DNA of 43,897 nt. Origin: Oscillospiraceae bacterium. Lineage in GTDB: Bacteria > Bacillota > Clostridia > Oscillospirales > Oscillospiraceae. Below the pieces are notes generated by a model. That model was not told the DNA's origin. It searched no databases and saw only the letters and a program-made list of their open reading frames with translations. The DNA is taken from assembly GCA_009786445.1 (NCBI GenBank), contig WQTE01000008.1:1-43897 (forward strand), written 5' to 3'. The translations under genes were made by a program, and so were the position numbers. Positions 1 to 12,182 of this stretch are shown one piece after another. Position 1 is the stretch's first letter, and each line of letters starts with the position of its first letter.

Positions 1-11
1 CCCCCCCCCCC
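1..11. repeat. Poly-C (poly-G on the coding strand) tract inside the DPPY methyltransferase gene
   Basis: At least eleven consecutive C on the given strand, open at the window edge. It reads as G codons directly after the DPPYG motif of the methyltransferase. A change of one or two bases would shift the frame just past the catalytic motif. Confidence 0.9.
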
Positions 12-110
12 GCCATACGGAGGATCCACCACAGCAAGGCTGAAATACTTATCAGGTATCTCTTTTAGCCCATCCATGCAATCCCCTAATACTAATCGGT
101 TTAACTCCAT
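1..110 (-). CDS. Site-specific DNA methyltransferase (N6-adenine/N4-cytosine type), 5' part only
   Basis: Only the first 36 or so codons are inside the window; the gene runs off the left edge. The start is ATG at 110, one base after the stop of the upstream cytosine methyltransferase part, with GGAGAAG seven bases before it, so the two are probably translationally coupled. The protein begins MELNRLVLGDCMDGLKEIPD and then reaches VVDPPYGGG. The DPPY tetrad is the catalytic motif IV of amino-methyltransferases, and a GDCM..L..IP lead-in is typical of phage and restriction-type enzymes of this class. The codons after DPPYG are an uninterrupted G run that reaches the window edge (at least 11 G), inside the catalytic domain. 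Target sequence and any partner nuclease cannot be seen. Confidence 0.8.
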   Translation of the reverse strand, partial: MELNRLVLGDCMDGLKEIPDKYFSLAVVDPPYGGGG

Positions 111-111
111 A

Positions 112-1092
112 CTACTTCTCCATAGGTATCATTTGTCTAAATATATGTTCAAGCACACTTACAACTATGCTATCTCCTGCAGCTTGATAGATTCTCGATT
201 CCGATATTCCAGCAGCTTTCATCTTGTCGTAGTCCTCTGCATCGAAATCCATCAACTTTAGGCACTCTTTAGCGGTTAATTTGCGGATTCTCAACTGGCT
301 TGGCTCATTTTCAAGCACCTTACTTTGGTTGTCTCCGCTTTTGTGTTGTGTCGCTAATATGGCTGGTGCTATATCGCTCTTTTTGTGAGTGACCGTCCTG
401 TTGCCGTCCTCGTCATATTCTCTCTGAGGTATCAATACAGCACTGCTCGAATCGGTCAATATCGCCCTTGACATGCCTTCCAATGGTTTTTTCTCTGCAT
501 ATTGCGGTTTGCCTACATACGTTCCTGCGGGTTCGCCATAAAGCACAGCAGCGTCGTGTTTGTTAGCCTTAATCGCTCGGCTTATTCCGGGAGAAGTTCC
601 CCTGTGAAATTCGTCAGTATCGTTTGTGTATAATCCGGATGGCTCTACGAGGTAATTATCTTTAGTGACGGTCGTTATTGTTCCGCATAAGCCATCGTCT
701 CTAGGTTCTAATTGCTGTATGTGTTTGCGGGGTTCTTTGACATTCCCAGCCTCGTAATCCTTGCGAATCTTTTTGCCGTATTCTGTCCGCTTAGTAGTAA
801 GCACCGCCGGTTCTCTTCCTCGCACGGCTGCAATTGTAGGCTCAGACACTATCGGCGTGTGACCACCGCCCATGCCCGAAGCTGCGTTTATTGTCGGGCA
901 TACTCCATCTGTTCTCGGTGTCTGGTGTTCTTGTAAACCACCCCAAACTACTATCTTCACTTCTTGATTACCCCCCCCCACTGTGTGTATCGTTGGCGAG
1001 ATACCTGTAGGGTCGTATACTCGCCGTGTTATGTCGTGCAATTTTCTGTATTTTTCATCATTCAGGATTCCGTATACAATGCACTTATTCAT
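112..1092 (-). CDS. DNA cytosine-5 methyltransferase, C-terminal (target recognition and motifs IX-X) part
   Basis: This 326-residue product looks like the second half of a C5-cytosine methyltransferase whose first half is encoded just upstream. The C-terminus has the family ending: a motif IX-like LTAKECLKLMDF, then a motif X-like QAAGDSIVVSVLEHI (family form Q.GNS, here D for N). Before that lie about six degenerate units of the form G(I/V/M)(S/C)(P/R).I followed by a stretch ending in V/I and often EP, for example GISPTIHTVGGG and GVCPTINAASGMGGG. Such units resemble target-recognition segments of Firmicutes phage cytosine methyltransferases. The ATG at 1092 overlaps the stop of the upstream part (ATGAATAA), suggesting coupled translation or a frame change. 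A G9 tract lies at 971-979. Confidence 0.75.
   Translation of the reverse strand: MNKCIVYGILNDEKYRKLHDITRRVYDPTGISPTIHTVGGGNQEVKIVVWGGLQEHQTPRTDGVCPTINAASGMGGGHTPIVSEPTIAAVRGREPAVLTTKRTEYGKKIRKDYEAGNVKEPRKHIQQLEPRDDGLCGTITTVTKDNYLVEPSGLYTNDTDEFHRGTSPGISRAIKANKHDAAVLYGEPAGTYVGKPQYAEKKPLEGMSRAILTDSSSAVLIPQREYDEDGNRTVTHKKSDIAPAILATQHKSGDNQSKVLENEPSQLRIRKLTAKECLKLMDFDAEDYDKMKAAGISESRIYQAAGDSIVVSVLEHIFRQMIPMEK
971..979. repeat. G9 homopolymer tract in the methyltransferase C-terminal part
   Basis: Nine consecutive C on the plus strand encode the GGG of a GISPTIHTVGGG unit. The present length keeps the long reading frame open. Confidence 0.9.
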
Positions 1093-1945
1093 AAATCATA
1101 TCCCATTCATGGCGGTCTGTACTTCCCCTACCGCCTTTTCTAACTGCTTTCGACACAGAGCGGGTCTTTGGCGTCTCGGGCGCATATTGTGCTACAGCAC
1201 CCCCCCCCGTTTGTATTCTGCGGGTCTGTTGTTCGAATGTACTGTTCAACAGCTTTTGTACCGACTCATCGGACAAATAGTATTTCTCGTCTACATTAGG
1301 CTCAAGCCTGTCTTTCAGCGTTTCAGCCAACGGCACAGGTAGCGGAAATGTATAAAAACCATCAAGTAGGCTCACCATAAAGCATCTATCTCGGTTCTGT
1401 GGTACTTCATAGTCTTTAGCGTTCAAGTCCTCGCTGTATGACGTGTAACCTTTAGATTCTAAGAAGATTACCCACTCTCGAAAACTGTCAACATTTGCAG
1501 AATCGTGTACCGCAACCACATTTTCCATAATAAGCACTTGTGGTAGTTCTGTCAGTTCGTCGATAATCCGCTCCACTTCCCAAAGTAGCCCTGACCTTGT
1601 TCCACCGTCACGCTTCATTCCCTGCCGTTTTCCGGCATTACTCAAATCTTGACATGGGAATGAGTATGTGAGTATGTAAACGTAATCTTCCGCGTCGATT
1701 ATGCCTAAGTCATTGCCGTGAAGTTCCGTTATGTCGGTTGTTCCAAACTTCATACCGTGTATTGCATTGAATCCGGCAATCTTATATTTACAGAAGTCCA
1801 CCGCTCGGTATGATTCATGTTCAACACCTAATCTTGTCAAAGCCTTGCTGAATGCGCCGATGCCGCAGAAGAGTTCTATTAGGCGCACAGGCTTGTCGAT
1901 TATGAATCTTTCCTTTGTCAGATGGTCAAAACTTATTTGTTCCAC
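1085..1945 (-). CDS. DNA cytosine-5 methyltransferase, N-terminal catalytic part
   Basis: A 286-residue protein with C5-methyltransferase motifs in order: motif I ELFCGIGAF (about residues 24-32, SAM binding), motif IV SFPCQDLS (catalytic Cys about 98), motif VI ENV (about 141-143) and motif VIII QNRDRCFM (about 183-190). It lacks motifs IX and X, which are encoded by the overlapping downstream gene. The C-terminal GRGSTDRHEWDM is a conserved-looking segment before the target recognition region. The start is GTG at 1945, after AAGGAG with five bases of spacing. A second G9 tract (1200-1208) lies in this part, in RIQTGGGAVA. By codon reading, one lost or gained G leads to a stop within about 20 codons. 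Likely role: phage DNA protection against host restriction. Confidence 0.85.
   Translation of the reverse strand: MEQISFDHLTKERFIIDKPVRLIELFCGIGAFSKALTRLGVEHESYRAVDFCKYKIAGFNAIHGMKFGTTDITELHGNDLGIIDAEDYVYILTYSFPCQDLSNAGKRQGMKRDGGTRSGLLWEVERIIDELTELPQVLIMENVVAVHDSANVDSFREWVIFLESKGYTSYSEDLNAKDYEVPQNRDRCFMVSLLDGFYTFPLPVPLAETLKDRLEPNVDEKYYLSDESVQKLLNSTFEQQTRRIQTGGGAVAQYAPETPKTRSVSKAVRKGGRGSTDRHEWDMIYE
1200..1208. repeat. G9 homopolymer tract in the methyltransferase N-terminal part
   Basis: Nine consecutive C on the plus strand. In the current length the frame continues to the stop at 1085. With one G fewer the frame meets TAG at 1194-1192; with one G more it meets TAG at 1142-1140. Confidence 0.9.
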
Positions 1946-2066
1946 GGCAACTCCTTAATAATCTCGCCATCCCAATATGGCTCTAGGTTTGATTTCATAT
2001 ATAGCGGTATGCTTGACTCTTTACACGCAGCAATAATGCTCTCTATCCAACTTCTTTTAGGCTCAA
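1933..2066 (-). pseudogene. Remnant reading frame resembling the C-terminus of a DUF5131 (phage Gp37/Gp68) protein
   Basis: Between the methyltransferase and the next gene an unstarted reading frame encodes RVEPKRSWIESI, then IIAACKESSIPLYMKSNL, and ends ELPWNK. This pattern (WIE.II..CK....P...K.NL...ELPW) looks like the end of DUF5131 family proteins, which are common in phage operons. No start codon or N-terminal part is visible, and it overlaps both neighbours, so it may be a leftover from recombination. The family assignment is from memory of the pattern only. Confidence 0.35.
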
Positions 2067-2609
2067 CACGCTTTCTTCTGTTATTTCGTCGAGAGAACGT
2101 TTGAATACGTTGCGAATATCGCGTGATGCGCCTTTTAGGTCGCCAATTGACCTTGTGTCATGGTCGACTAATCTATCCGGCAATAAAACATAAAAGTGTT
2201 CCCACTTGACGGATTTTCCATCTTCTGCTTGCTCGTAATTCTGATTAGTTCCCACGCCCTTGTGCTTATTGACAAATATGTCAACAACAGGCTTCGACTT
2301 GAGATATTGCGACAGAGCATTTACTACCGGCTGAAATGTACCGTCTCCGGTTTCAAAATCCCACAGTGTATGCACCTCGTTGTTTTTGATTACAACAGCG
2401 TTTCCGAAACTCTTTACAAAATGTCTGCAACAGCTACAGTCAAACTCTCTGCGCTCACGGTACACCTCGTTAGTTCCCGGCGGGAAACTGTCGAGATAGA
2501 GATTCCAGAACTCCTCTTTGTCAATTTCGATTTCAAATAATTGCGTTACTTCTTTTGTCAGACTCTCAAAGTTATCTTGAAATACTTTTTTGAACTCGCT
2601 GAACTTCAT
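2043..2609 (-). CDS. Phage hypothetical protein with CxCC motif
   Basis: A 188-residue protein of unknown function. The chosen start is ATG at 2609, eight bases after AGGAG. A GTG nine bases upstream overlaps that ribosome site and is less likely. It has EFDCSCCRHFVKSFGN near residue 60, which could bind a metal, and conserved-looking blocks such as TLWDF, TFQPVVNALSQYLKS and WEHFYVLLPDRLV. I recall similar proteins in the early regions of Firmicutes phages but know no function. It lies downstream of the two tRNA genes and upstream of the methyltransferases on the same strand. Confidence 0.7.
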   Translation of the reverse strand: MKFSEFKKVFQDNFESLTKEVTQLFEIEIDKEEFWNLYLDSFPPGTNEVYRERREFDCSCCRHFVKSFGNAVVIKNNEVHTLWDFETGDGTFQPVVNALSQYLKSKPVVDIFVNKHKGVGTNQNYEQAEDGKSVKWEHFYVLLPDRLVDHDTRSIGDLKGASRDIRNVFKRSLDEITEESVLSLKEVG

Positions 2610-2663
2610 TGTTTTCACTCCTAAAATTTATTTGACACACTACTGAATTTCGTGTTGCCATCA

Positions 2664-2738
2664 TGGTGACCTCGGAGAGAATCGAACTCTCGCCTCCGGC
2701 TTGAAAGGCCGGCAACTTAACCACTTGTCTACGAGGCC
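2664..2738 (-). tRNA. tRNA-Glu (anticodon TTC)
   Basis: A full cloverleaf can be read. The acceptor GGCCTCG pairs with CGAGGTC, then comes discriminator A and an encoded CCA. The anticodon stem CCGGC/GCCGG encloses the seven-base loop CTTTCAA, anticodon TTC. The T arm is GAGAG-TTCGATT-CTCTC. It lies inside the prophage early operon, so it is a phage-carried tRNA. Confidence 0.92.
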
Positions 2739-2741
2739 AGA

Positions 2742-2819
2742 TGGTCGTGGTGGGTAGGAATTGAACCTCCGACTTCACACAGATGATGAGTGTGCGTTCT
2801 GCCGCTGAACTACACCACG
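2742..2819 (-). tRNA. Aberrant tRNA or tRNA-like gene with a nine-base anticodon loop
   Basis: The acceptor stem CGTGGTG/CACCACG is perfect, followed by A and an encoded CCA. The D arm GTTC-AGCGGCA-GAAC is intact. The anticodon stem CACAC/GTGTG is perfect but closes a nine-base loop, TCATCATCT, instead of seven. The T stem GGAGG pairs with CCTACC only if one A is bulged. The anticodon is therefore unclear: CAT (Met-like) if read from the 5' side, TCA (UGA-reading) if the central triplet is used. It may be a decaying tRNA or an unusual decoder. It sits three bases from tRNA-Glu. Confidence 0.65.
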
Positions 2820-2830
2820 ACATATGAATA

Positions 2831-3019
2831 CTAAGAATCCTCGCTAAAATTTTCGCTGTCAGAGTTTGGAAATCTCGGTATCATGCCAAGCATCATTTGA
2901 TGCTTGGTGAGGTCTAGTGCTATTTCCTTCGGAAACCCAACACGTACAAAGCTGTCGAACGTTATTTTATACAATTCTGTCATTGCGCCAATTGACTCAA
3001 CCATCTTTTCAAAACCCAT
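2831..3019 (-). CDS. Small phage protein, unknown function
   Basis: A 62-residue protein beginning MGFEKMVESIGAMTELYKI. The start ATG at 3019 lies nine bases after the stop of the resolvase gene, with an AGGGG-like site before it. It is mostly helical in character, with TFDSFVRVGFPKEIALDLTK in the middle, and resembles short proteins that follow RuvC-like genes in Clostridia phages. A longer upstream reading overlaps the resolvase and is unlikely. No function can be assigned. Confidence 0.6.
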   Translation of the reverse strand: MGFEKMVESIGAMTELYKITFDSFVRVGFPKEIALDLTKHQMMLGMIPRFPNSDSENFSEDS

Positions 3020-3027
3020 ACCCCTGT

Positions 3028-3519
3028 CTACCTTTCCAATATTGTTTCGATATACGTAACTCCGAGAGCATATGCCGCCCAACAGTCCGCTTTGAATCCG
3101 TAAAACCAATCTCGATTTTTCTTCGTGCCTTTCCCATTCTTTAGGTCGTGGAGCGCAAATCTATCAATCAATGCCCTGCGGACGTTTGTATCTTTAGCCC
3201 TGCTGTCTTGGCAGATATGAACCTTGACCGCCATACGGTAAATCAACTGCAAATCTCGAATAGTCTTGCGTGTAAAGCACTCGTAGAGCCGCCCTATCCA
3301 TTGTGCTGTGTCCAACACGTCACGCCCTATCAGGTTTCCGTAACTTTGAAGATTTTCGATTGCAACGCAGTCTATTTCGTCGAACTGCCATAAATCCCTG
3401 ATATAATGCCGCAACATATGGTTTTCTACTTTCCCAAAATCAAGAGGCTCGAATGTTTCGGCACACATGATGCAGTATGCGCTTTCTTTGTTTCCGGGGT
3501 CTATCGCAATGACTCTCAT
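3028..3519 (-). CDS. RuvC-like Holliday junction resolvase of phage type
   Basis: A 163-residue protein starting MRVIAIDPGNKES, with the acidic first strand (Asp7) of the RNase H/RuvC fold. VAIENLQSYG follows in the second acidic position, and DRDWFYGFKADCWAAYALG-like residues near the end carry the last acidic group. Such proteins resolve recombination or replication intermediates before packaging. The start ATG at 3519 overlaps the stop of the DnaC-type gene (ATGA) and follows TTGGAGG. It belongs to the replication-recombination operon with the loader and the replisome organizer. Confidence 0.8.
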   Translation of the reverse strand: MRVIAIDPGNKESAYCIMCAETFEPLDFGKVENHMLRHYIRDLWQFDEIDCVAIENLQSYGNLIGRDVLDTAQWIGRLYECFTRKTIRDLQLIYRMAVKVHICQDSRAKDTNVRRALIDRFALHDLKNGKGTKKNRDWFYGFKADCWAAYALGVTYIETILER

Positions 3520-4391
3520 TTTGACCTCCAACTTTCGCCCTCGATTACCGTGATATGGCACATTTCCTTTAGCCGGTCTACTATACATTCCGCTGTCGTG
3601 GTATCGGCGCCTTTAGGAGTCAACCTATGAATTAACTCCGAGGGTGCGTAGTTTGTTGTGATGATTGTCGGATTAACCGATTCGTACCGACCGTCAATGA
3701 TTGCGTAAATTGTTGCAAGTGTCCATTCCGTAGCTTTCTCTTTTCCGAAATCGTCAACAACAAGCAGTTTTGCGTTGATGTATCTGTCAATAACGTCTCT
3801 TTCGCTTGCGATGGGATCCGAAAAAGTATGCCGGATATTTCCGAGGAGAGCGCGTTCCGTCATGCAAATAACACGATGTTCTTTTTCAATTAGCCGATTG
3901 GATATTGCGGAGGCGATATGAGTTTTCCCCGTTCCCATTTGCCCTATAAACATAATTCCGTTTCTCTTAGGCAACGCCCTTCCGCGTTTAGGAAGTAGGT
4001 TCTCGAAGTTGGTGGTATATTCTTTAGCCCCGTTGTACATCCGCTTTGCATAATCAGTGGTGGTTTCAAAAGTATCGAGTGTCTGTTGACGTGACCGCTC
4101 ACCCATTCCGCTCATCTTGAAAAGTCTTTCCATGCGTTGTGCTTTCCGTCTTGATTCTTCACGCTCTGTTTCTTCGTGGTATATGGCTTCTTGCTCTGCT
4201 TTGTCACTCTCGTACTTTGCTATGCCTTCGGCACAGGTGCATGAGTTTGGAAAACTGCTTTTTATTTCCAACTCTCCGAGACGTACTGAGTTGTATGTCA
4301 ACGGCTCGTTGCAGAACTCGCATAATTCCTGTTCAATCGAGGATGTGGAATCCTTCAAAAGATCCTGTATCGTAAGTAGATTTGGTCCCAT
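3516..4391 (-). CDS. DnaC/IstB-type helicase loader ATPase
   Basis: A 291-residue AAA+ protein. Walker A is GQMGTGKTH (about 150-158), Walker B is LLVVDDFG (about 210-217), and an IITTNY sensor 1 follows. Cysteines 24, 27, 51 and 53 form a likely N-terminal zinc site (CEFC ... CTC). Helicase loaders of this family deliver the replicative helicase to phage origins. The gene overlaps the upstream replisome organizer by 59 bases and the downstream resolvase by ATGA, so the three are one translational unit. An AAAGGGGG site precedes the ATG. Confidence 0.85.
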   Translation of the reverse strand: MGPNLLTIQDLLKDSTSSIEQELCEFCNEPLTYNSVRLGELEIKSSFPNSCTCAEGIAKYESDKAEQEAIYHEETEREESRRKAQRMERLFKMSGMGERSRQQTLDTFETTTDYAKRMYNGAKEYTTNFENLLPKRGRALPKRNGIMFIGQMGTGKTHIASAISNRLIEKEHRVICMTERALLGNIRHTFSDPIASERDVIDRYINAKLLVVDDFGKEKATEWTLATIYAIIDGRYESVNPTIITTNYAPSELIHRLTPKGADTTTAECIVDRLKEMCHITVIEGESWRSK

Positions 4392-5127
4392 TTTTAGCTG
4401 CGCCCCCTTTCGCTGTGTTCTGTTGGTTCAAGTACCCCTCAAATTTTCTGCCGAACAGTGTTTCCGGTCGTAGGTATTTTGACATCTCAGGATTCTCCAA
4501 CCAGTCAGCAACTTTATTGTCTATAACGCTTTTGAAATCGTCGAGGGTAAACCCCTCTGCCAGCCGTGCGTTAATATGTTCGTTTGTTTTTGTTGATGTT
4601 GGCTTATAATTCGTACCCGCTTTTCCGTTGAGATATTCGATAATCACGTTCCTTATTTCATTCTTATTTATATCTTCATCTTCAATTACATCTTCATTTT
4701 CTAAAGGCTTGTTTTCGGGTTGTTTTTTTTCGGGGTCTTGGGTTGTTTTTGGTTTGTTTTCGGGTTGTTTTCTTGCATTCTGATTTCCTTTAGGCGCACC
4801 GCCCTTTTTGCCGTTTATGCTTTGGTGTTTAAGGTGTTTCGCCCTTTTAATAATTTCTTTTTCTAGCCTCACATTGTAGAAATTTCCATTTTCGTCTGTT
4901 TTGAATTTTTCGAGAACGTCAGAAATTTCTTCGAGTGAAGATACTCTTAAAAACAACCTAATTGTTTTTTCAGATAAACAACCCTTTTGGTGCTGAAGGC
5001 AGAGAAGTTTAATGTATTTACCTACCTCATCATCGGTGAATCCGGCAACGCCTGTGAGGAAATCGCTGCTGTACAAAAGAAATGCCGGGTCTTTGCTTTC
5101 GATTTCGTCGATTTCATTTTTTAGCAC
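4333..5127 (-). CDS. Phage replisome organizer / replication initiation protein
   Basis: A 264-residue protein. The N-terminus DPAFLLYSSDFLTGVAGFTDDE resembles winged-helix phage replication proteins. The middle is a charged linker with repeated QPENKP. The C-terminus, IIEYLNGKAGTNYKP through WLENPEMSKYLRPETLFG, matches the conserved phage C-terminal domain often called Phg_2220_C. Such proteins bind the phage origin and recruit the loader. I chose GTG at 5127, which follows AGGAAAGGAAG; an upstream ATG at 5160 lies deeper in the preceding gene. A local origin is not obvious. It is immediately upstream of the DnaC-type gene. Confidence 0.75.
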   Translation of the reverse strand: MLKNEIDEIESKDPAFLLYSSDFLTGVAGFTDDEVGKYIKLLCLQHQKGCLSEKTIRLFLRVSSLEEISDVLEKFKTDENGNFYNVRLEKEIIKRAKHLKHQSINGKKGGAPKGNQNARKQPENKPKTTQDPEKKQPENKPLENEDVIEDEDINKNEIRNVIIEYLNGKAGTNYKPTSTKTNEHINARLAEGFTLDDFKSVIDNKVADWLENPEMSKYLRPETLFGRKFEGYLNQQNTAKGGAAKNGTKSTYDTGSFEGFHILD

Positions 5128-5497
5128 TACTTTTCTTCCTTTCCTCAGATACGGTTGCAATTACCTGTTTGCATTGATCCACGTCAAACATTGCAATGTG
5201 TGTTTTTTCTTCTGGTATTTTCATCTTCCGTGAGAGCCATTTATATGCACTCTTCCGGCGTCCCTTGAATCGTCCGGTTTTCCATAACGGATCAAACGAA
5301 TCATGCGCCTTTCTGCGCCACAGTCGCAGCTCTCTATTTGCGAGCCGTCCGAGCGGCTTATTTGTATTCATGTGTGTTCCTACATAGGCATCGCAAGGGT
5401 GGCATATATACGCCATTCCGTAACTTTTGCCGTAAATTTCCTTACTATCTATGAGCCTCGCCGATTTTCCGCAGTAAGGGCATTCAACATGAATCAT
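5114..5497 (-). CDS. Zinc-finger-containing phage protein (DUF3268-like)
   Basis: A 127-residue protein starting MIHVECPYCGKSA, with a second CHPCDAYVG pair, giving a CxxC...CxxC zinc ribbon. The rest is basic (LWRRKAHDSFDPLW, RRKSAYKWLSRKM), fitting nucleic-acid binding. The pattern CPYCG...C.PC.AYVGTH...PLGRLAN.ELR matches the DUF3268 zinc-finger family. The ATG at 5497 overlaps the end of the upstream gene and follows AAAGGGG. It shares the replication operon; the exact role is unknown. Confidence 0.75.
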   Translation of the reverse strand: MIHVECPYCGKSARLIDSKEIYGKSYGMAYICHPCDAYVGTHMNTNKPLGRLANRELRLWRRKAHDSFDPLWKTGRFKGRRKSAYKWLSRKMKIPEEKTHIAMFDVDQCKQVIATVSEERKKSSAKK

Positions 5498-6062
5498 TAA
5501 GACTTCCCCTTTCTCTCATCTCCCATTCGGTTTTCATTCTTTCTAACTCTTCCGGCGGTAGCGTTTCGATGCCTTGCTCTTTGCAATCCGCTACAATTAA
5601 CTCAATAAGATTCGCCATCTGCTTTGAGTCGTAAGAACTTGAGCCGAAATAGAAAATGATAGTTTGTTTGCCCGGTTCAATGTCGTTGCCGAGGTCGTCG
5701 CATAACCATCCGAGACCGATTGACTGCCATGCTGCTATAGTCTTTTCTACAGCTTCGTTCCGGACGGAGTATATTTCAAAATTGTCGCCAACTTCACGGA
5801 TATACTGCCAGTAAACCTCAGTTTTTGTGATATTTAGCACCGCAGCGAGTTTTCCTATAAGAACCCAAGCATAAGCATTTGCGGTAAGGCTTCGCTTTTT
5901 TCTATGTATTTTCAACTCTGCGACATGTGTTTTCTGCCGCATTTCAGAGACAAACTTCCGGGCTTTGACAGGTTCTTCGTAGTCACTATGTATTTCAAGC
6001 ATCAAGTAGTCTTTGTTGTTGTGTGCTATAACCATTGCACTCTCAAATTTAATGCTCGTCAT
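5484..6062 (-). CDS. NinB-like phage recombination protein
   Basis: A 192-residue protein. The block KKRSLTANAYAWVLIGKLAAVLNITKTEVYWQYIREVG is of the NinB type (a lambda recombination mediator family that binds single-stranded DNA). The C-terminal part YFGSSSYDSKQMANLIELIVADCKEQGIETLPPEEL is shared by Firmicutes phage relatives. The start ATG at 6062 lies just after the MBL-fold gene stop. Placement among RecT, the loader and the resolvase supports a recombination role. Assignment rests on pattern recall. Confidence 0.6.
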   Translation of the reverse strand: MTSIKFESAMVIAHNNKDYLMLEIHSDYEEPVKARKFVSEMRQKTHVAELKIHRKKRSLTANAYAWVLIGKLAAVLNITKTEVYWQYIREVGDNFEIYSVRNEAVEKTIAAWQSIGLGWLCDDLGNDIEPGKQTIIFYFGSSSYDSKQMANLIELIVADCKEQGIETLPPEELERMKTEWEMRERGSLNDSC

Positions 6063-6065
6063 TCG

Positions 6066-6722
6066 TTAATCCTCGTGTTGGTGGAGTAACACATATTGGC
6101 TGTGTTGCGCCATGTTCTTATAAAGCCAATCCTCTGCGCTCTCTTTCGAGAGATGGTTTTTCAGAACTTCCCACTCATGCACAAACTCGTCGTTTTCTTG
6201 TTTGCGCCGTATGCGTTCAGTTATTTCGGATTCCGTGTAGTTCGCTTCCACAAAATAAAGGTCGTAGCCTTTAGCCTCAATTCTGTCAAGACTATTTGTA
6301 TCTGTCGCATAGAATACACTAACTGGTGCGCCCTTCTCGTTGTCGTGTATGAAGATGTGCCAACAGCAGTTCTCCACATTATGCGTTGTTTTCTGAGGGC
6401 ATACACTCAAAAAGAAGCTGTATGAAACACGCTTGTCCATCTCCATAACGTCAATATTTCTCTTCTTTACCTCGCAAGCGAGTAACCTTTCTACAAGCCA
6501 CTCAGGAACACACCAACGTACCGTAGGACGTTCCTGTGCGAGTCGCCTAATTGTGGAGCGGTTAAAGTGGTCTCCGTGCTTATGCGTAAGAATTACGAGT
6601 TGCAACTTATGAGAAACGCCCTTAATCGCTTTCCACGGCACTCCGAGGTCAATTAGTATGCTATTATTTAAAACAAGCGCATTGCCTTTTGAGCCTGTTG
6701 CAATTATTTCGTAATCAACCAT
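6066..6722 (-). CDS. Phage MBL-fold metallohydrolase
   Basis: A 218-residue metallo-beta-lactamase-fold protein. The metal motif LTHKHGDH (about residues 45-52) is the HxHxDH signature, with the later Asp in VFYATDTNSL. MBL-fold proteins of this kind are often next to recT in Firmicutes phages and are thought to act in DNA processing, but substrate and activity are not shown by the sequence. AAGAGAG precedes the ATG at 6722. Unusually, it is separated from recT by 408 bases without a convincing gene. Confidence 0.8.
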   Translation of the reverse strand: MVDYEIIATGSKGNALVLNNSILIDLGVPWKAIKGVSHKLQLVILTHKHGDHFNRSTIRRLAQERPTVRWCVPEWLVERLLACEVKKRNIDVMEMDKRVSYSFFLSVCPQKTTHNVENCCWHIFIHDNEKGAPVSVFYATDTNSLDRIEAKGYDLYFVEANYTESEITERIRRKQENDEFVHEWEVLKNHLSKESAEDWLYKNMAQHSQYVLLHQHED

Positions 6723-6737
6723 TTGTCACTCTCTTTT

Positions 6738-6810
6738 CTTGTGTGGCGGAGTAGGGGTTGAACCTACCATACAGCTTATTAAGATGTAGCTAATATCCGC
6801 TGACGACAAG
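6738..6810 (-). ncRNA. Candidate structured RNA with a tRNA-like T arm
   Basis: On the minus strand nested helices can be drawn. The outer CTTGT/ACAAG encloses GCGGA/TCCGC. That in turn encloses two hairpins: AGCT with an 11-base loop, and GTAGG-TTCAACC-CCTAC, which looks like a tRNA T arm. There is no normal anticodon arm, so it is not a regular tRNA. It may be a tRNA-like or leader RNA, or a degenerate tRNA. Confidence 0.35.
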
Positions 6811-6916
6811 CCTTGTATACCAAGTGTTTCAATTTCCCTCAACCGGTATTGGTACTTTAGCCTTACATGATATTCGCACTGTTCCGCCCTTATGCAACTG
6901 CTGTGGGATTGTGCCT

Positions 6917-6942
6917 GCGGGGAGTTGGGATATACTCCCCGC
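6917..6942 (-). other. Perfect GC-rich hairpin
   Basis: GCGGGGAGT and ACTCCCCGC form a nine-pair stem around an eight-base loop. No U run follows on either strand, so it is not a simple terminator. Confidence 0.6.
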
Positions 6943-7130
6943 AAGCCTTGCCGTCTCTCCGTGCTGTCACCACCTGTTGAGAGCATCTGCCGTGGTTGCC
7001 ATCAGTCACGTCCTCAACTAACGTCTCACGCTATTACCGCACACGCGTGAAAATAACCCGTACTTATTCGTAACCATTAACTTAACTATGGTCGGCGGTT
7101 AGATTGGATGGTATATAAACGCCCTAGCGG

Positions 7131-8015
7131 TTATAACTCGTCCATCGATACTTGCTCTGCATCGTCACTGTCTGCATCGTCACCTTTAGGCGGCTCGCTT
7201 GCGCTCTCGGTTGGAGTGTCATCGGGTGGTTGTGGGTTCACCTCTGCAACTACTTCGCCTATTTCAGCACCATCAACATATTCAACTGTGCCGTCGGCAT
7301 CAATCATGGCAGTGTCGCGTTCATACGCCTCTCGCATTTCGATAGACATAAACCCCCACTTGCTAATTAGCTGGCGTATCATTGTTTTTAAAGCCATAGC
7401 ATCAAAGTTTTTCTCCCAATGGGTGTAACCTTTTTTCGCTGCGTAACCCTTTGAATAACGAAGGGCGTGTTGCTCCATCTTGTCCTTGCTCCAATAAAAT
7501 GATTTTTCAAAGCCATTGAGATACTTAAGATATGCGTAATAACCTACCGTCTCAGCCGTTTCCCGCACAAGCTCATCTTGTATAATGTTAATATCAATTT
7601 CTCCGGTAAAGGGATTGTAGCTGTTTAGTTCGCCTTTTTTTATTTCCAGCACATCAATATTTTTGTATTGACCTGATCGGATAGCCAGTTGTATGTACCC
7701 TTTGTAGCCGAGGATAAAGGTTGCTACCATTCGATTGTTTTTGTTGTCTTTGAACGGCACAAGATAATACTGGCCAAGCTGCGGCGAGGGTGACAGGTTA
7801 AGGCTCTCGCCAAGCAACGCACACGACAATATTGTTCCAGCATCACACTCTTGGAGCGCAGGGTTGACCGCAACCGCAGAACTGATTGCAGCGACAAACC
7901 GCTGTGCGCGTTTCGGGTCTTGCAATGTGTTGTTGATTAGCTTTTTGTAGCCCTCAGTCTGTATAGCAACTGAGAATTTCGGTTTTTGTGCTTTCGCTAT
8001 TGCTGTGTTGCTCAT
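7131..8015 (-). CDS. recT: RecT-family single-strand annealing recombinase
   Basis: A 294-residue protein with the RecT core: residues from about 20 to 215, including LLGESLNLSPSPQLGQYYLVPF, TFILGYKGYIQLAIRSGQYK and the C-terminal AMALKTMIRQLISKWG. RecT coats single-stranded DNA and anneals complementary strands in phage recombination. The last 50 residues are acidic and Pro/Ser-rich (PPDDTPTES, DDADSDDAEQ), as in relatives. GGAGG precedes the ATG at 8015. No RecE-type exonuclease is seen; a DUF1351 protein lies upstream, as in many Gram-positive phages. Confidence 0.92.
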   Translation of the reverse strand: MSNTAIAKAQKPKFSVAIQTEGYKKLINNTLQDPKRAQRFVAAISSAVAVNPALQECDAGTILSCALLGESLNLSPSPQLGQYYLVPFKDNKNNRMVATFILGYKGYIQLAIRSGQYKNIDVLEIKKGELNSYNPFTGEIDINIIQDELVRETAETVGYYAYLKYLNGFEKSFYWSKDKMEQHALRYSKGYAAKKGYTHWEKNFDAMALKTMIRQLISKWGFMSIEMREAYERDTAMIDADGTVEYVDGAEIGEVVAEVNPQPPDDTPTESASEPPKGDDADSDDAEQVSMDEL

Positions 8016-8016
8016 C

Positions 8017-8304
8017 TTATAAATCCTCCGCTCTAATTTCTTCTGTTTCTATTGCCCGTTCTTCGCTCTTTGGCACATACAGTTTATCGATGGTCTTGAG
8101 TTTCGACATCCACCGCTCATCGACCTTGCTTTCCGGCACGTTTACCGCCGAAACTTTAGCTACGCTCTCACTATTGCCAACTGGAGCAATAACTAAATCA
8201 CCAACAGCAAGGTCTATTCCCGCAAAATAGGTGTACTCCCTGCCATCATACTCGTCGGAGTTCTTCTTGTTTTGATATTGAACAGATACCAAGGGCTTAC
8301 TCAT
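8017..8304 (-). CDS. Small phage protein beside recT, unknown function
   Basis: A 95-residue protein. The central block GREYTYFAGIDLAVGDLVIAPVGNSESVAKVSAVNVPES has the alternation of a small beta-barrel and resembles short proteins common in Firmicutes phage recombination operons. It overlaps the end of the DUF1351 gene by eight bases and its stop lies one base before the recT start codon. GGAGG lies eight bases before its ATG. Function not known. Confidence 0.65.
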   Translation of the reverse strand: MSKPLVSVQYQNKKNSDEYDGREYTYFAGIDLAVGDLVIAPVGNSESVAKVSAVNVPESKVDERWMSKLKTIDKLYVPKSEERAIETEEIRAEDL

Positions 8305-9148
8305 ATTTGTAACCTCCGTCTACGATGAATTTTTTTAACTCTCTCAGCTTTGACAATGGTGCAGTCACCTTAAAAGTAACCGTCTTAACCGGGTCGTCAT
8401 AAACCACTGGCGGGGCTGTCGGTGGAGCAAGAGGAGGAGCAACAGCGGCATCCACTTTGTTTTCCACCTCTTGCTCGGCTGCCTTTTGCTCTTCCCTTGC
8501 TGCTTGCACTTCTAATTGCATCTTGATAGCCTTGTGCCGTTCCGCAACAATCGAGATAGATTCCGCTGCGCTTAGAGATTTTTTGAACTCCGCAAGGATT
8601 TCGCCCTTTAACTCTTCCGGTTGTGTCTCTATCGCCTTTATGTCTGCAACAACTGATTCTATGCGCTCCTTGCATATCTTCTTTAGGGCGGTTTCGGTGG
8701 TTGACATTTTGAACACCGGCATTATTTGTCGTTCAAAATCCGCATAATCCACAACGCCGCTTGATTCAGCGCACTCGTTAAAGAAGGTGAAAAGTTTGTC
8801 AATCTTGACCGACCTCAATTCGTCCTCAACCTCTTTGATTTTGGAGTCCAGAATTTCTTTAGCAGCTTTGTATTTGTCGCTTATGCACTCTTTGTAGACA
8901 GTCTCAAACTCGTCATACGGATTGAGTACCTGTTGCTTGACAATCTTGCGTAGCTTTTCCGCATCGGCAAATTCCTTATTAAACTCAGTACGGATTTTCT
9001 TGACCGCCTTCACTGATTCCTCATCGCACACGAGGGTATCTACGATTGACAACCTGCTGTCAATTTCCTCCGCAACGGTTTTTAACCGTTCTTTAATAAC
9101 AGGGATTTGCTCAACAACAATCAGATCCATTGTTATGAGTTCGCTCAT
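8297..9148 (-). CDS. DUF1351-family phage protein
   Basis: A 283-residue protein. It has a long coiled-coil-like N-terminal and central region (VKAVKKIRTEFNKEFADAEKLRK, YDEFETVYKE, SKIKEVEDELRSVK), a Pro/Ala-rich hinge (about 235-250) and a C-terminal TFKVTAPLSKLRELKKFIVDGGYKYE. This layout fits DUF1351, found next to recT in many Gram-positive phages, where it may work in recombination. AGGAG precedes the ATG at 9148, which overlaps the upstream stop (ATGA). Confidence 0.8.
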   Translation of the reverse strand: MSELITMDLIVVEQIPVIKERLKTVAEEIDSRLSIVDTLVCDEESVKAVKKIRTEFNKEFADAEKLRKIVKQQVLNPYDEFETVYKECISDKYKAAKEILDSKIKEVEDELRSVKIDKLFTFFNECAESSGVVDYADFERQIMPVFKMSTTETALKKICKERIESVVADIKAIETQPEELKGEILAEFKKSLSAAESISIVAERHKAIKMQLEVQAAREEQKAAEQEVENKVDAAVAPPLAPPTAPPVVYDDPVKTVTFKVTAPLSKLRELKKFIVDGGYKYE

Positions 9149-9519
9149 TGTTCACTTTCTCCTTTTAAGTAGTTATTTATTAAGTGCATCAATAGGTCTT
9201 GCATTGTAGTAAACCCCTGCACTTTCATACGTTGTTGCAACTTCGTATAAACGCTCCTTTCAAGCCTGCATGAAACACGGTGCGGCATCTTGTTTCCACC
9301 TCTCACACGCCGTTTTACTTCATCTATGTTGTCCGGCGCACAAAATTCTATAATTGCATTCATAATCTTGGGGTCTATTTTGATTCCGTATTTATAGCCA
9401 TTTTCACACTTCGAGAGCATAGCTTTATCAAAAGCCGGACATATCGGCTTGACGGCTTCTACAACGTCCATCATCTTTTTTCCGCTCTCTAATCGTATTT
9501 GCTTTAACAAACGTGACAT
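9145..9519 (-). CDS. Phage HTH-like plus RHH-like small protein
   Basis: A 124-residue protein. Residues 1-60 (MSRLLKQIRLESGKKMMDV ... AMLSKCENGYKYGIKIDP) resemble an XRE-type helix-turn-helix. Residues 78-120 (PHRVSCRLERSVYTKLQQRM...TTMQDLLMHLINNYL) resemble a ribbon-helix-helix. It may be a DNA-binding regulator. GAGGTGTAGCA precedes the ATG. Family function unknown. Confidence 0.65.
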   Translation of the reverse strand: MSRLLKQIRLESGKKMMDVVEAVKPICPAFDKAMLSKCENGYKYGIKIDPKIMNAIIEFCAPDNIDEVKRRVRGGNKMPHRVSCRLERSVYTKLQQRMKVQGFTTMQDLLMHLINNYLKGESEQ

Positions 9520-9521
9520 TG

Positions 9522-9734
9522 CTACACCTCGGCCTTTCTATCGGACTTGATTGATGGTCCCCATCCGAGCAACATTTTTGGGAAAAATCCATTTTCAGAT
9601 TTGGTGCGCTTCTGTTGTAGTGGTTCGTTCACCCCTGCACCACACTCGCTACAGTAAACGGCTAACCATGTATCATGTACATTCGCTCTTAGTGTTATTC
9701 CGCAGTCGGAACATTTTCTTGTTACATTGCTCAT
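9522..9734 (-). CDS. Small zinc-ribbon phage protein
   Basis: A 70-residue protein with two CxxC pairs (CSDCGIT and CSECGAG, about residues 8-35), a typical zinc ribbon. The ATG at 9734 overlaps the stop of the upstream gene (ATGA). No function is assigned beyond probable zinc binding. Confidence 0.6.
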   Translation of the reverse strand: MSNVTRKCSDCGITLRANVHDTWLAVYCSECGAGVNEPLQQKRTKSENGFFPKMLLGWGPSIKSDRKAEV

Positions 9735-9967
9735 TCTGACTGTACCTCCACCAACGAATATCTTTTGAATGAAACGCTTTCGCCATATCTGTTTTTTGAC
9801 TTATCCCACTCGTCCTTGATGGTGTGTCCGCGTTCTTTTAGGTCGAGTATTCGCCTTGGCAGATGTGCTACTCCAAGTTCTGAAAAAGCTTCAAATGAAC
9901 TGATTGAGCCGAAATCATTCATGTATTTAAGAACTCGGTCACACTGAGTTGGCTTGCTTAACCTCAT
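9731..9967 (-). CDS. Phage winged-helix-like small protein
   Basis: A 78-residue protein with the pattern VLKYMNDFGSISSFEAFSELG followed by RRILDLKERGHTIKDEW and RYGESVSFKRYSL. This is the small helix-turn-helix protein widespread in phage early regions (substrate unknown). A GAAGGATT site precedes the ATG. The 18-base leader containing this site is repeated before the next gene upstream. Confidence 0.65.
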   Translation of the reverse strand: MRLSKPTQCDRVLKYMNDFGSISSFEAFSELGVAHLPRRILDLKERGHTIKDEWDKSKNRYGESVSFKRYSLVEVQSE

Positions 9968-9993
9968 AATCCTTCAATCCTTTCTCGTTCACG

Positions 9994-10200
9994 CTACATG
10001 CAAACCATTACATCCAAGCAGATGGTTTCGCACTCGTCATGTGTGGCGACAATCCTCACAGTTTCGTGTTTAGGTTCAAAAATATTCGTTGCTTCACACC
10101 GATAACATTCAATGTCAGCACCATTTACGTGGACGGTTACTTCAACATCATCACCGGGTTCACAACGAGATAATTCTTTTATTAGTTCCCAAACTTTCAT
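9994..10200 (-). CDS. Small hypothetical phage protein
   Basis: A 68-residue protein (MKVWELIKELSRCEPGDDV...). The start MKVWELIKEL..CEPGDDVEV is the type seen in short phage proteins with a helix followed by beta strands. GAAGGATT precedes the ATG. Function unknown. Confidence 0.5.
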   Translation of the reverse strand: MKVWELIKELSRCEPGDDVEVTVHVNGADIECYRCEATNIFEPKHETVRIVATHDECETICLDVMVCM

Positions 10201-10206
10201 AATCCT

Positions 10207-10533
10207 TCAATCCTTCTTATAGCGTAATTGTTCTTCCGACCAATCGGGGTATCTCAGTTGCAGATATTTCCTAAATAGCCTGTCTATACTCTTTCGCTCC
10301 TCCGGATAGCCGTGGTCGTGTTTATCGTGGCAAGGAATGCACATAACACCAAGATTTTGTTCTATTCCGAGTCCGCTCAAGCTACGAGGTATATAATGAG
10401 CCACTGAGAGCATATCGCCGCGTTTGCATATAATGCACAATGGGCTTATTCCATCGTCGCTGTCACGCTCGTAAACGGCTTTTCTGACTTTTTGAGATAT
10501 ATCTAATGCGCGTGTCCGTTTCGACTTAGGCAT
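10207..10533 (-). CDS. HNH endonuclease family protein
   Basis: A 108-residue protein. It shows CIIC, then AHYIPRSLSGLGIEQNLGVMCIPCHDKHDHG, the HNH (His-Asn-His, with two CxxC zinc pairs) nuclease motif. Such small HNH proteins in phages act as nicking or packaging-associated nucleases. The preferred start is ATG at 10533 after AAGGAAAG; it overlaps the stop of the 58-residue gene upstream (ATGCCTAA). Position in the early rather than packaging block makes its exact task uncertain. Confidence 0.8.
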   Translation of the reverse strand: MPKSKRTRALDISQKVRKAVYERDSDDGISPLCIICKRGDMLSVAHYIPRSLSGLGIEQNLGVMCIPCHDKHDHGYPEERKSIDRLFRKYLQLRYPDWSEEQLRYKKD

Positions 10534-10702
10534 CTTTTTTACTTTCCTTTTCGAGTATCGCATCAGCATTGGGCTGTTTCATAAATTCGATGAACGAGTG
10601 ATATGCCGCCGCAGCGAGATTTTTCTGATTCTGTGTTGGGATTGAGTCGTAATCAGGTTCAACAGGGTTTCCGTCATCGTAATAGAGATTACACTTGCTC
10701 AT
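10526..10702 (-). CDS. 58-residue phage protein
   Basis: A short gene encoding MSKCNLYYDDGNPVEPDYDS and ending KESKKDA. ATG at 10702 overlaps the upstream HTH gene stop (ATGA) and the stop overlaps the HNH gene start. The sequence CNLYYDDG.PVE.DY.SIP..NQKNLAAAAYHSFI resembles a recurrent small phage protein. Function unknown; tight coupling on both sides supports it being real. Confidence 0.65.
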   Translation of the reverse strand: MSKCNLYYDDGNPVEPDYDSIPTQNQKNLAAAAYHSFIEFMKQPNADAILEKESKKDA

Positions 10703-10989
10703 TCTGTCGCTCCTTCTTCTATTTCAATTGATAAAGTACATTTCAATAACAAGTTGGAGTTAATTTGCTTTTGTGGTTCATGTTGCAACTCCCATCCCAC
10801 GAGGTATGAAGGGCTTACCTCCAAAATATGAGCAATATGCTCTATAAGACTGAGCGAAGGTTCTCGTATGCCAGACTCCCAATTGCCAACAACACCGCTC
10901 CTCATTCCTAATTTTTTGGCTAGAGATGCTTGAGACAATTTGGCATCTTCTCGGCATTCTTTAAGCCTCTTTTGAAACAGCACATTCAT
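10699..10989 (-). CDS. XRE-family helix-turn-helix regulator
   Basis: A 96-residue protein with an N-terminal HTH (FQKRLKECREDAKLSQASLAKKLGMRSGVVGNWESGIREPSLSLI, about 5-50) and a short C-terminal extension. GGAGG lies seven bases before ATG 10989, which overlaps the stop of the first HTH gene. Its order at the head of the leftward operon suggests a Cro- or antirepressor-like role. Confidence 0.8.
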   Translation of the reverse strand: MNVLFQKRLKECREDAKLSQASLAKKLGMRSGVVGNWESGIREPSLSLIEHIAHILEVSPSYLVGWELQHEPQKQINSNLLLKCTLSIEIEEGATE

Positions 10990-11189
10990 CACTGCGCCTC
11001 CATCATCAGTGAATCCATAGTCACACCGAAAACATCAGCGATACTCTTTAACAAAGTTGCAGAGGGTTGTTTTTGCCCTATCTCTAATTGTGCAATCATG
11101 TTTTGAACTACGTGAACACGGTCTGCGAGTTCCTGTTGAGAGAATCCCTCTTTTTCTCTTAGTTCACGTATCCTTTTTACATTTACCAT
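10989..11189 (-). CDS. Cro-like XRE helix-turn-helix protein
   Basis: A 66-residue single-HTH protein (RIRELREKEGFSQQELADRVHVVQNMIAQLEIGQKQPSATLLKSIAD). It is the first gene of the leftward early operon, the place of Cro in temperate phages. It faces the rightward immunity genes across a 259-base intergenic region with operators. The binding target is not shown. Confidence 0.8.
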   Translation of the reverse strand: MVNVKRIRELREKEGFSQQELADRVHVVQNMIAQLEIGQKQPSATLLKSIADVFGVTMDSLMMEAQ

Positions 11190-11226
11190 ATGTTGTACCT
11201 CACAATTCAGTTACCGCAATATATTC

Positions 11227-11255
11227 TTGCAATTTCCCCGCAGTCGTGGTATAAT
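11227..11255 (+). promoter_or_regulatory. Rightward promoter (TTGCAA-17-TATAAT)
   Basis: TTGCAA at 11227-11232 and a perfect TATAAT at 11250-11255, 17 bases apart. It would start transcription toward the small gene at 11449 and the repressor. Confidence 0.6.
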
Positions 11256-11330
11256 TAAGTTGCTACATTCAATTAAATGCCATTCTTGCGGGGATTATTG
11301 CGCCCTTCGGTATTACTGGGTAAGTGCAAG

Positions 11331-11352
11331 TATAATTCACCACAGGGTGAAT
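11331..11352 (+). promoter_or_regulatory. Operator 1 with overlapping -10 box
   Basis: TTCACC-ACAG-GGTGAA (11336-11351) is a perfect inverted repeat, and TATAAT (11331-11336) touches its left arm. A protein bound here would block that promoter. Confidence 0.65.
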
Positions 11353-11365
11353 GTCAACACAAATC

Positions 11366-11381
11366 TTCACCTTTTGGTGAA
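11366..11381. promoter_or_regulatory. Operator 2
   Basis: TTCACC-TTTT-GGTGAA, the same arms as operator 1, centred 30 bases downstream of it. Confidence 0.65.
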
Positions 11382-11448
11382 TTTAGTTGATTATACAAAA
11401 AGAACACCCTGCATTTGTGCAAGGTGCATAAGGAAAGGTTTGGCTTAC

Positions 11449-11652
11449 ATGGAGAAAGATTTTCAAGAGTTTAAAGATGGAATGCCTGAGTTTGATAGTC
11501 TGCTACCAGAGTTAATCCGCGGAGTGCTTGCCAAAGAGTCTCACGGCTTTACTGATGATGAAGTTAAGTTTATTGCAAAATTGTCTGCAAGCGTTTCGTT
11601 TGTTCTTCTCGACTGTTATCACCGTTGGTTGAACCTTCCCGAAGAACGTTGA
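11449..11652 (+). CDS. Small acidic phage protein in the immunity region
   Basis: A 67-residue protein beginning MEKDFQEFKDGMPEFDSLLP. The start ATG at 11449 is preceded by AGGAAAGG with about ten bases of spacing. It has an acidic N-terminus and a helical C-terminus (DEVKFIAKLSASVSFVLLDCYHRWL). Function unknown. A minus-strand frame overlaps its 3' half. Confidence 0.6.
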   Translation: MEKDFQEFKDGMPEFDSLLPELIRGVLAKESHGFTDDEVKFIAKLSASVSFVLLDCYHRWLNLPEER

Positions 11653-11748
11653 CACATCGCACATAGCGTTAAGCCTGTCGCTGAGTGTTGTAGTAGTTAA
11701 ATAGTCATGTTTTTCGTGATTATTCTCTAAATAAGCGTTATCTTTCAC
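11512..11748 (-). CDS. Possible small antisense-oriented phage gene
   Basis: A 78-codon frame starting GTG at 11748 with GGGAGG seven bases before it, and a minus-strand TATAAT-like box adjoining operator 3. It overlaps the 3' half of the plus-strand gene at 11449, so one of the two may be spurious, or only its first 30 codons may be meaningful. The protein is not recognised. Confidence 0.3.
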   Translation of the reverse strand: MKDNAYLENNHEKHDYLTTTTLSDRLNAMCDVSTFFGKVQPTVITVEKNKRNACRQFCNKLNFIISKAVRLFGKHSAD

Positions 11749-11778
11749 CGTGATACCTCCCTAGGTGTTTAGGGTTAT

Positions 11779-11800
11779 TATAATTCACCATATGGTGAAT
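11779..11800 (+). promoter_or_regulatory. Operator 3 and repressor promoter
   Basis: TTCACC-ATAT-GGTGAA (11784-11799), with TATAAT at 11779-11784 overlapping its left arm, lies 17 bases before the repressor start codon. This arrangement fits autoregulation by the repressor. Confidence 0.65.
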
Positions 11801-11816
11801 GTCAAGGAGGTTTACT

Positions 11817-12182
11817 ATGGCTTTCCAAGAACGAATCATGGAACTCATTAACAAAAAAAACACAACACGAAGCAAAATGCTTAAAGACCTTGAAATCAAT
11901 CACAACGCTTTCGCAAAATGGAGCAAACCTGATGCTTTTCCTGATGCAAAGAACTTAATAAAAATCGCAAATTATTTCAACGTATCGGCTGACTTTCTAC
12001 TTGGCTTGCCTATGCAGGGATTGGCACAAGACGAACAAAAACTTGTAGAGGACTACAGAGAACTAAACGACCAAGGCAAAGAATGGATAAGGCAAAATAT
12101 GGCTACCGGGCTACACGCATATAAAAAACCTGCTACTTTTCCCAACGTGGAAAGTGCGGTAGGCGGCAATATTATCGCATAA
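11817..12182 (+). CDS. XRE-family phage repressor
   Basis: A 121-residue protein with an N-terminal HTH (ERIMELINKKNTTRSKMLKDLEINHNAFAKWSKPDAFPDAKNLIKIANYFNVSADFLLG) and a C-terminal helix pair. There is no LexA-like protease domain. The start is ATG 11817 after AAGGAGG; an upstream in-frame ATG lies inside the operator. Three identical-arm operators surround it, so it is the most likely immunity repressor of the prophage. Confidence 0.8.
   Translation: MAFQERIMELINKKNTTRSKMLKDLEINHNAFAKWSKPDAFPDAKNLIKIANYFNVSADFLLGLPMQGLAQDEQKLVEDYRELNDQGKEWIRQNMATGLHAYKKPATFPNVESAVGGNIIA

Follow-up and report, generated by a model that had tools for sequence, protein, structure and literature searches.

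What does it mean that DNA methyltransferase genes at one end of a prophage carry three long runs of G, all of them at glycine codons? We asked this of a 43,897-base stretch (referred to here as the window) of the 45,234-base contig WQTE01000008.1 (C8 in our numbering) from the Oscillospiraceae bacterium assembly GCA_009786445.1. The answer that we strongly favor is that these prophage genes are simple-sequence contingency loci, i.e., phase-variable genes; slippage in the tracts, its reversibility, and its use are what we infer. An earlier note on this DNA had proposed homopolymer slippage in phage methyltransferases, an idea now supported by changes in tract length among relatives, a link between tracts and broken reading frames, an enrichment of methyltransferases among genes with runs of 12 G, and poly-G genes in the host.

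Poly-G tracts in the methyltransferase genes of the window

A scan for homopolymers located C runs on the plus strand, corresponding to G on the coding (minus) strand, at exactly positions 1 to 11, 971 to 979, and 1200 to 1208, confirming the lengths, positions, and coding strand given in the earlier note. Tract 1 (1 to 11, minus strand) directly follows the DPPYG codons of an N6-type methyltransferase and has at least 11 G, being cut by the contig end; it measures 13 G in IMG/VR contig IMGVR_UViG_3300027864_001044, which is 100% identical to window positions 1 to 12182 and continues beyond base 1. Tracts 2 (971 to 979) and 3 (1200 to 1208), both on the minus strand, have 9 G each and encode Gly-Gly-Gly in open reading frame B (ORF B) and Gly 247 to 249 of ORF A, respectively. 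The tracts are thus 9 to 13 bases long and are located at glycine codons in variable parts of methyltransferases.

Two hallmarks of a contingency locus were found at these sites. On the one hand, the long homopolymers within coding sequence exceed chance expectation. Outside the three tracts, the window contains one run of seven G and one of six C and no longer run of either base. The string GGGGGGG has 12 overlapping matches against a mean of 1.74 expected, a number reached in 0 of 100 shuffles, and at least three runs of 9 or more occurred in 0 of 2,000 synonymous-codon permutations (mean, 0.07) of a set of 22 prophage genes (12,417 nucleotides; 14 genes from the window and 8 from the IMG/VR contig). 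On the other hand, a change in length cuts or alters the product. All three tract-bearing frames are open as sequenced, and the two alternative frames stop within 1 and 33 codons after tract 1 (in the IMG/VR copy), 1 and 4 codons after tract 2, and 2 and 20 codons after tract 3, where open frames with nearby stops upon single-base changes had been predicted correctly.

The N6/N4-type DNA methyltransferase (PF01555, phrog_67) is represented in the window by its 5′ part (1 to 110, minus strand). The whole gene (L003:4983-5678) is intact in the IMG/VR contig and encodes 231 amino acids, with a PF01555 match of 57.9 bits (cutoff, 26.7) over residues 149 to 217. Both this match and a DPPY motif place the protein in its class; DPPYG lies near the N terminus and DTHVGSG near the C terminus, which we take to be the order of beta-class enzymes. 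Solved structures with related sequences (11 sequences) include CcrM, M.MboIIA, DpnA-type, and RsrI methylases and match within residues 147 to 230. When the protein was aligned with 56 intact relatives (one of the 57 intact cluster representatives, L145, was left out), residues 33 to 79 contained no invariant or near-invariant column, and tract 1 is located at the start of this variable part.

The other two tracts are found in a C5 methyltransferase that is divided over two ORFs. ORF A (1085 to 1945, minus strand; 286 amino acids) is the N-terminal catalytic part and matches positions 2 to 252 of the PF00145 profile with 137.3 bits, while ORF B (112 to 1092, minus strand; 326 amino acids) begins with a Gly-rich variable region and then matches profile positions 252 to 323 (28.2 bits; cutoff, 22), so that no single protein of the window covers the full PF00145 length. 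In the NCBIfam model dcm, ORF A scores 116.3, above the cutoff of 100.65, and ORF B scores 37.4, below it. The stop of ORF A and the start of ORF B overlap by 8 nucleotides in the present frame (1085 to 1092, minus strand), making translational coupling possible. The earlier note had described adjacent methyltransferase genes; the tracts do lie on the coding strand of such genes, but the two ORFs with 9-G tracts correspond to the N-terminal and C-terminal portions of a single kind of C5 methyltransferase rather than to two enzymes. A similar protein is encoded by Dulem virus 39 (XCD07457.1), which shows 56% identity over the ORF A part and also matches parts of ORF B; unlike in the window, both parts form a single gene of 527 amino acids there, and all G and C runs of this gene are shorter than 5.

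Among the 20 phage matches listed (from 486 records), similarity to ORF A extends as far as residues 227 to 241 in 15 and residues 268 to 272 in 5; it stops at residue 241 in L056 and continues to residue 286 in L005. Given that tract 3 encodes Gly 247 to 249, close to where this similarity ends, it seems to lie at the entry of a variable, presumably target-recognizing region, with tract 2 inside that region. Downstream of tract 3 (window 1200 to 1140, minus strand), an unused frame reads STICARDAKDPLCV, which resembles STLCARDFKDPKCV of L005; GGRGSTDRHEWDMIYE is the end of the open frame. This L005-like stretch hints at past frame changes in the region.

Tract length and reading frames in relatives

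If the tracts are contingency loci, their length would be expected to differ between close genomes. This difference was seen in relatives, among 10 pairs of loci that are at least 99% identical over long stretches, drawn from the 80 IMG/VR loci of an N6 methylase search (8 pairs were inspected for gaps and 2 are 100% identical). Gaps occurred in 4 of the 10 pairs, and all 7 gaps were changes in the length of G runs of at least 7, affecting 4 distinct tracts; three of the four gapped comparisons come from one trio (L037, L054, and L064). The members of this trio are 99.6 to 99.9% identical over 4.2 to 6.3 kb, with two gaps per comparison, and all six gaps are one-base changes of a G run at three distinct tracts. 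L037 has an intact N6 methyltransferase frame, and those of L054 and L064 are broken. The remaining gapped pair, L069 and L070, has a single gap (G7 versus G9). The six gapless pairs comprise four that were inspected and the two that are 100% identical.

Runs of A or T served as a rough control in the same alignments. Over 9 pairs (L054/L064 was left out as redundant, and two pairs share L037), 5 of 10 G runs of at least 7 varied, compared with 0 of 19 A/T runs (Fisher P = 0.002), in a comparison of unmatched lengths, the A/T runs being mostly of length 7 to 8 and the G runs of length 7 to 10. Without the two identical pairs, the A/T count is 0 of 16 (P = 0.004).

Frame breaks were scored in 112 loci encoding an N6-type methylase, made up of the best 80 of 159 IMG/VR candidates and every one of the 32 reference-genome loci returned. 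Of these, 106 are full length (6 were dropped) and form 85 clusters when grouped at 90% identity. A frame was called broken if it contained a frame change or an in-frame stop, the latter in L131 only. Broken frames were found in 32 of the 48 full-length relatives with a run of at least 7 G, compared with 9 of the 58 without one (P = 6 × 10^-8). The association was retained when only the first member of each cluster was counted (20 of 36 with a tract versus 7 of 49 without; P = 6 × 10^-5). L063, L077, L073, and L101 are broken relatives without a run of at least 7 G, probably representing decayed genes or older events.

The lengths of the runs inside the N6 methylases are bimodal, with 39 runs of length 5, 5 of length 6, 10, 13, 10, and 9 of lengths 7, 8, 9, and 10, respectively, and 4 longer ones. 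Runs of at least 8 inside the methyltransferases comprise 36 G runs and 1 C run in 56.9 kb, i.e., 0.63 G runs per kb, compared with 21 runs (G or C) in 446.6 kb of flanking sequence (0.047 per kb). Of the 36 G runs, 25 start within 49 nucleotides of the DPPY codons.

Other phage methylases, the prophage, and its host

The flanking runs lead to further methylases. By our own tally, 12 of the 21 are inside other methyltransferase genes, a number that includes the two C5 tracts of the window and one tract counted in two relatives (L086 and L097). Ten tract-adjacent pieces all matched PHROG families of DNA methyltransferases (among them phrog_67, 116, 363, 757, and 954); these pieces had been picked mostly as likely methylases, and 1 of the 11 prepared pieces (L082) was left out. 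Since this choice was not blind, a gene-blind sample was drawn from IMG/VR, consisting of at least 240 stretches with exact runs of 12 G and two kinds of flank. Of 240, 161 have the run at least 300 nucleotides from the locus end (79 are nearer), and in 103 of these it lies in a long open frame (58 do not). In 68 of the 103, it is the presumed coding strand that carries the G (P = 0.0015).

Families of DNA methylases were matched by 11 of 90 pieces upstream of the run (6 C5, 2 N6/N4, 2 Dam, and 1 D12; P = 0.0014 versus control) and by 13 of 93 pieces downstream (7 C5, 5 N6/N4, and 1 Dam; P = 0.0004), counted per family, so that a piece with two families counts twice, and not additive, the upstream and downstream pieces being largely the same genes. 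The control, one random draw of ORFs from the same loci, had at least 1 match in 100 (D12) among the 25 of 28 matching families listed. The three unlisted families have one member each, with E values of 10^-4 to 10^-3; if all three were methyltransferases, P would be 0.03 upstream and 0.01 downstream. Most of the 12-G pieces, like most controls, had no family match, and the sample includes one pair with 90% identity. Tract-bearing genes other than those for DNA methyltransferases included ones for tail- and baseplate-like, FkbM-like, and RfbT-like proteins.

The tracts of the window belong to a prophage with replication initiation, helicase loader, RecT, phage regulator, and large serine integrase genes. 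The regulator/repressor-like gene (11799 to 12182, plus strand) ends where the IMG/VR contig ends (12182), and the integrase gene (12532 to 14112, plus strand) is followed from position 14363 by host-type genes (histidine kinases, ABC transporter genes, and a GH9 glycoside hydrolase). The window therefore contains one end of an integrated prophage. Two tandem tRNA genes, for Glu (TTC) and Met (CAT), are located within the prophage on the minus strand (2664 to 2819), and a PAPS-reductase-like gene (L003:5694-6443; PF01507, phrog_424) lies directly 3′ of the N6 methylase. A megablast search of phage sequences returned no match, and among 60 genomes searched only the one that contains the window matched. 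When the metagenome-assembled genome was queried for the remaining prophage (L003:4983-8900), only the 110 bases of the window itself and a 164-base stretch of contig C3 (90% identity) were found. Among 18 genus-mates, 7 have partial matches to the N6 methyltransferase, at 29 to 41% identity.

The host has long G runs of its own. Its 2.72-Mb genome contains nine runs of at least 9 G, representing eight distinct tracts, as C82:6-16 and C128:51-62 are one tract in overlapping contig ends. The host genes with such tracts encode a large protein with a PF03442 carbohydrate-binding match and a weak Ig-like match, an Asn-synthase-like protein (PF00733), a methyltransferase of FkbM type by its look (no Pfam match), a Methyltransf_23-like protein (26.9 bits; cutoff, 27), and a probably secreted protein with the tract at its start (no Pfam match). 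Outside the prophage, the long-G genes thus look like surface or polysaccharide genes, and the Asn-synthase-like gene appears to belong to a polysaccharide-type cluster, as read from the translations of its flippase- and glycosyltransferase-like neighbors. On contigs C82 and C128 (L115 and L116), this cluster appears to include several poly-G genes (Asn-synthase-like, FkbM-like, and Methyltransf_23-like), the last of which is in two frames at its tract. The tract of the Asn-synthase-like gene was not counted as length variation, with the contigs that meet there reading 12 G versus N followed by 11 G.

A run of 10 G is present in 17 of 19 genomes of the genus, including this one, and one genus-mate (G013) has 113 overlapping matches to such a run on many contigs, an unusually large number that may point to an extensive repertoire of phase-variable genes. 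Given these poly-G genes of host and genus, the host lineage of the prophage seems to use poly-G switching itself. Six of the seven runs of at least 11 G in the metagenome-assembled genome are within 62 nucleotides of a contig end (C8:1, the end of C33, both ends of C82, near the start of C128, and the end of C158), with one tract appearing twice, once from each side. Long G tracts therefore seem to break this assembly at phase-variable-looking genes. The earlier suggestion that the window contig ends at base 1 due to a variable tract length fits in that the contig does begin inside tract 1 and other long G runs are near contig ends, but poor assembly of G runs would look alike.

A proposed switch, its rivals, and known systems

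In the mechanism that we propose, slipped-strand mispairing would add or remove one or a few bases in a tract and thereby shift the frame, either leaving the full product or ending it within a few dozen codons; the replication and repair background of the host presumably lets such tracts mutate. A shift at tract 1 would remove everything beyond DPPYG and a short tail, and a shift at tract 2 would end ORF B soon after its start. At tract 3, the tail of ORF A would be shortened and its stop displaced from the start of ORF B, possibly uncoupling B. The phage population would then be a mixture of methylation states, most likely used to vary the modification of phage DNA against some host restriction systems, possibly along with switching of host methylation during lysogeny; relief from the cost of methylation in the lysogen may be an alternative use.

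Several observations weigh against this reading. The idea that tract 3 joins the two C5 ORFs in another frame had to be rejected, as both other frames stop before ORF B; with no frame joining the two, a simple ON/OFF switch of one full-length C5 methyltransferase is not seen here. In the window itself, the 9-G tracts at 971 to 979 and 1200 to 1208, the ones comparable between the two assemblies of the prophage, have the same length in both, and the two assemblies may derive from one sample. Near-identical relatives (L086/L087 and L094/L095) keep a long tract unchanged, four less similar pairs have gaps at tracts and elsewhere, too, and the lengths in the A/T control are unmatched, as stated above. 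Sixteen of the 48 tract-bearing relatives are intact, which switching would also permit, only 28 of 45 frame changes have a tract of at least 7 within 60 nucleotides, and the 9 tract-free broken loci comprise 8 with a frame change in addition to L131. Some frame breaks in metagenomes may be assembly errors or decay.

How well do other explanations account for the same data? We regard it as very improbable that the tracts are chance or constrained Gly-Gly-Gly stretches written in GGG codons without a role in switching. All three do encode Gly runs, L056 retains Gly-Gly-Gly in other codons where tract 2 would be, and DPPYGGG occurs in some relatives that lack a long run; the synonymous permutations, the bimodal run lengths with their preference for G over C, and the variation of tract length among near-identical contigs along with its association with broken frames argue otherwise. 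Hardly more probable is that homopolymer errors of assembly or sequencing produced the length differences and frame breaks. The clustering of long runs at contig ends would suit such errors, but the A/T runs are constant in the same alignments, and errors would not concentrate long runs in methyltransferases rather than in their flanks. It also appears improbable, if slightly less so, that transcriptional or ribosomal slippage at the tracts, rather than mutation, yields both products from one sequence: G runs can be slippery and ORF A and ORF B overlap in different frames, but the DNA lengths themselves vary among near-identical contigs, and after tract 3 neither of the other frames reaches ORF B.

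A possibility of more weight, which we still place somewhat below an even chance, is that ORF A and ORF B form a two-subunit C5 methyltransferase, in which tract 3 would affect no more than the ORF A tail and the coupling of the two ORFs instead of turning one protein ON or OFF. The overlap of the ORF A stop with the ORF B start is compatible with this arrangement, the two parts are separate in L056 as well, and Streptococcus phage Javan129 has two adjoining genes annotated as parts of a C5-type methylase. Against it stand the single gene for the same protein in Dulem virus 39 and the L005-like stretch in another frame of the ORF A tail, which suggests a past frame change.

Phase variation by poly-G tracts is well established, and among the matches listed from the open-licence literature no title or abstract start dealt with poly-G tracts in phage methyltransferases as a class. 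Phage methyltransferases are, to our knowledge, usually treated as fixed. The closest systems that we found differ in the genes or repeats involved. In Campylobacter Fletchervirus phages, poly-G tracts are reported to vary receptor-binding proteins (Sorensen et al. 2021, via PMC11868660 and PMC11959909). That system resembles the present one in that hypermutable poly-G tracts in phage genes would generate population diversity and in that the host uses poly-G, too, but the tract-bearing genes of the window encode DNA methyltransferases, not receptor-binding proteins, and belong to a prophage of another lineage. M.Btr192IV, a prophage methyltransferase of Bibersteinia trehalosi similar to hia5, contains 12 copies of CAAG in a repeat 63 bp after the start codon, and the genes were reported not to be expressed in their native hosts (PMC4996451). 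It shares with our genes a simple-sequence repeat in the coding sequence of a prophage DNA methyltransferase; its repeat is a tetranucleotide, unlike the mononucleotide tracts at Gly codons of N6-type and C5 methyltransferases found here, which recur over many phages. Bacterial phasevarions (type III and type I methyltransferases such as ModA, ModM, and ModH) likewise rely on random ON/OFF switching of a DNA methyltransferase by repeat slippage, as proposed here, but involve the bacteria's own restriction-modification genes, in contrast to the phage-borne methyltransferases described here. The mechanism is known, and its use across families of phage methyltransferases is a little-described variant.

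On a broader claim we are evenly divided, namely that phages, as a widespread and convergently evolved strategy, switch their self-encoded DNA methylation at random. C5, N6/N4, Dam-like, D12, and other families would then have repeatedly gained poly-G tracts at Gly codons in or near catalytic motifs, and several independent switches per phage would provide many methylation states against host restriction. If phage methylation is indeed switched at random, phage populations would be hedged against restriction and might re-mark the chromosome of the lysogen as well, and tract length and methylation state would be expected to vary together in existing long-read gut and rumen metagenomes. Apparently broken methyltransferase genes of phages in the databases may then be OFF variants, not pseudogenes.

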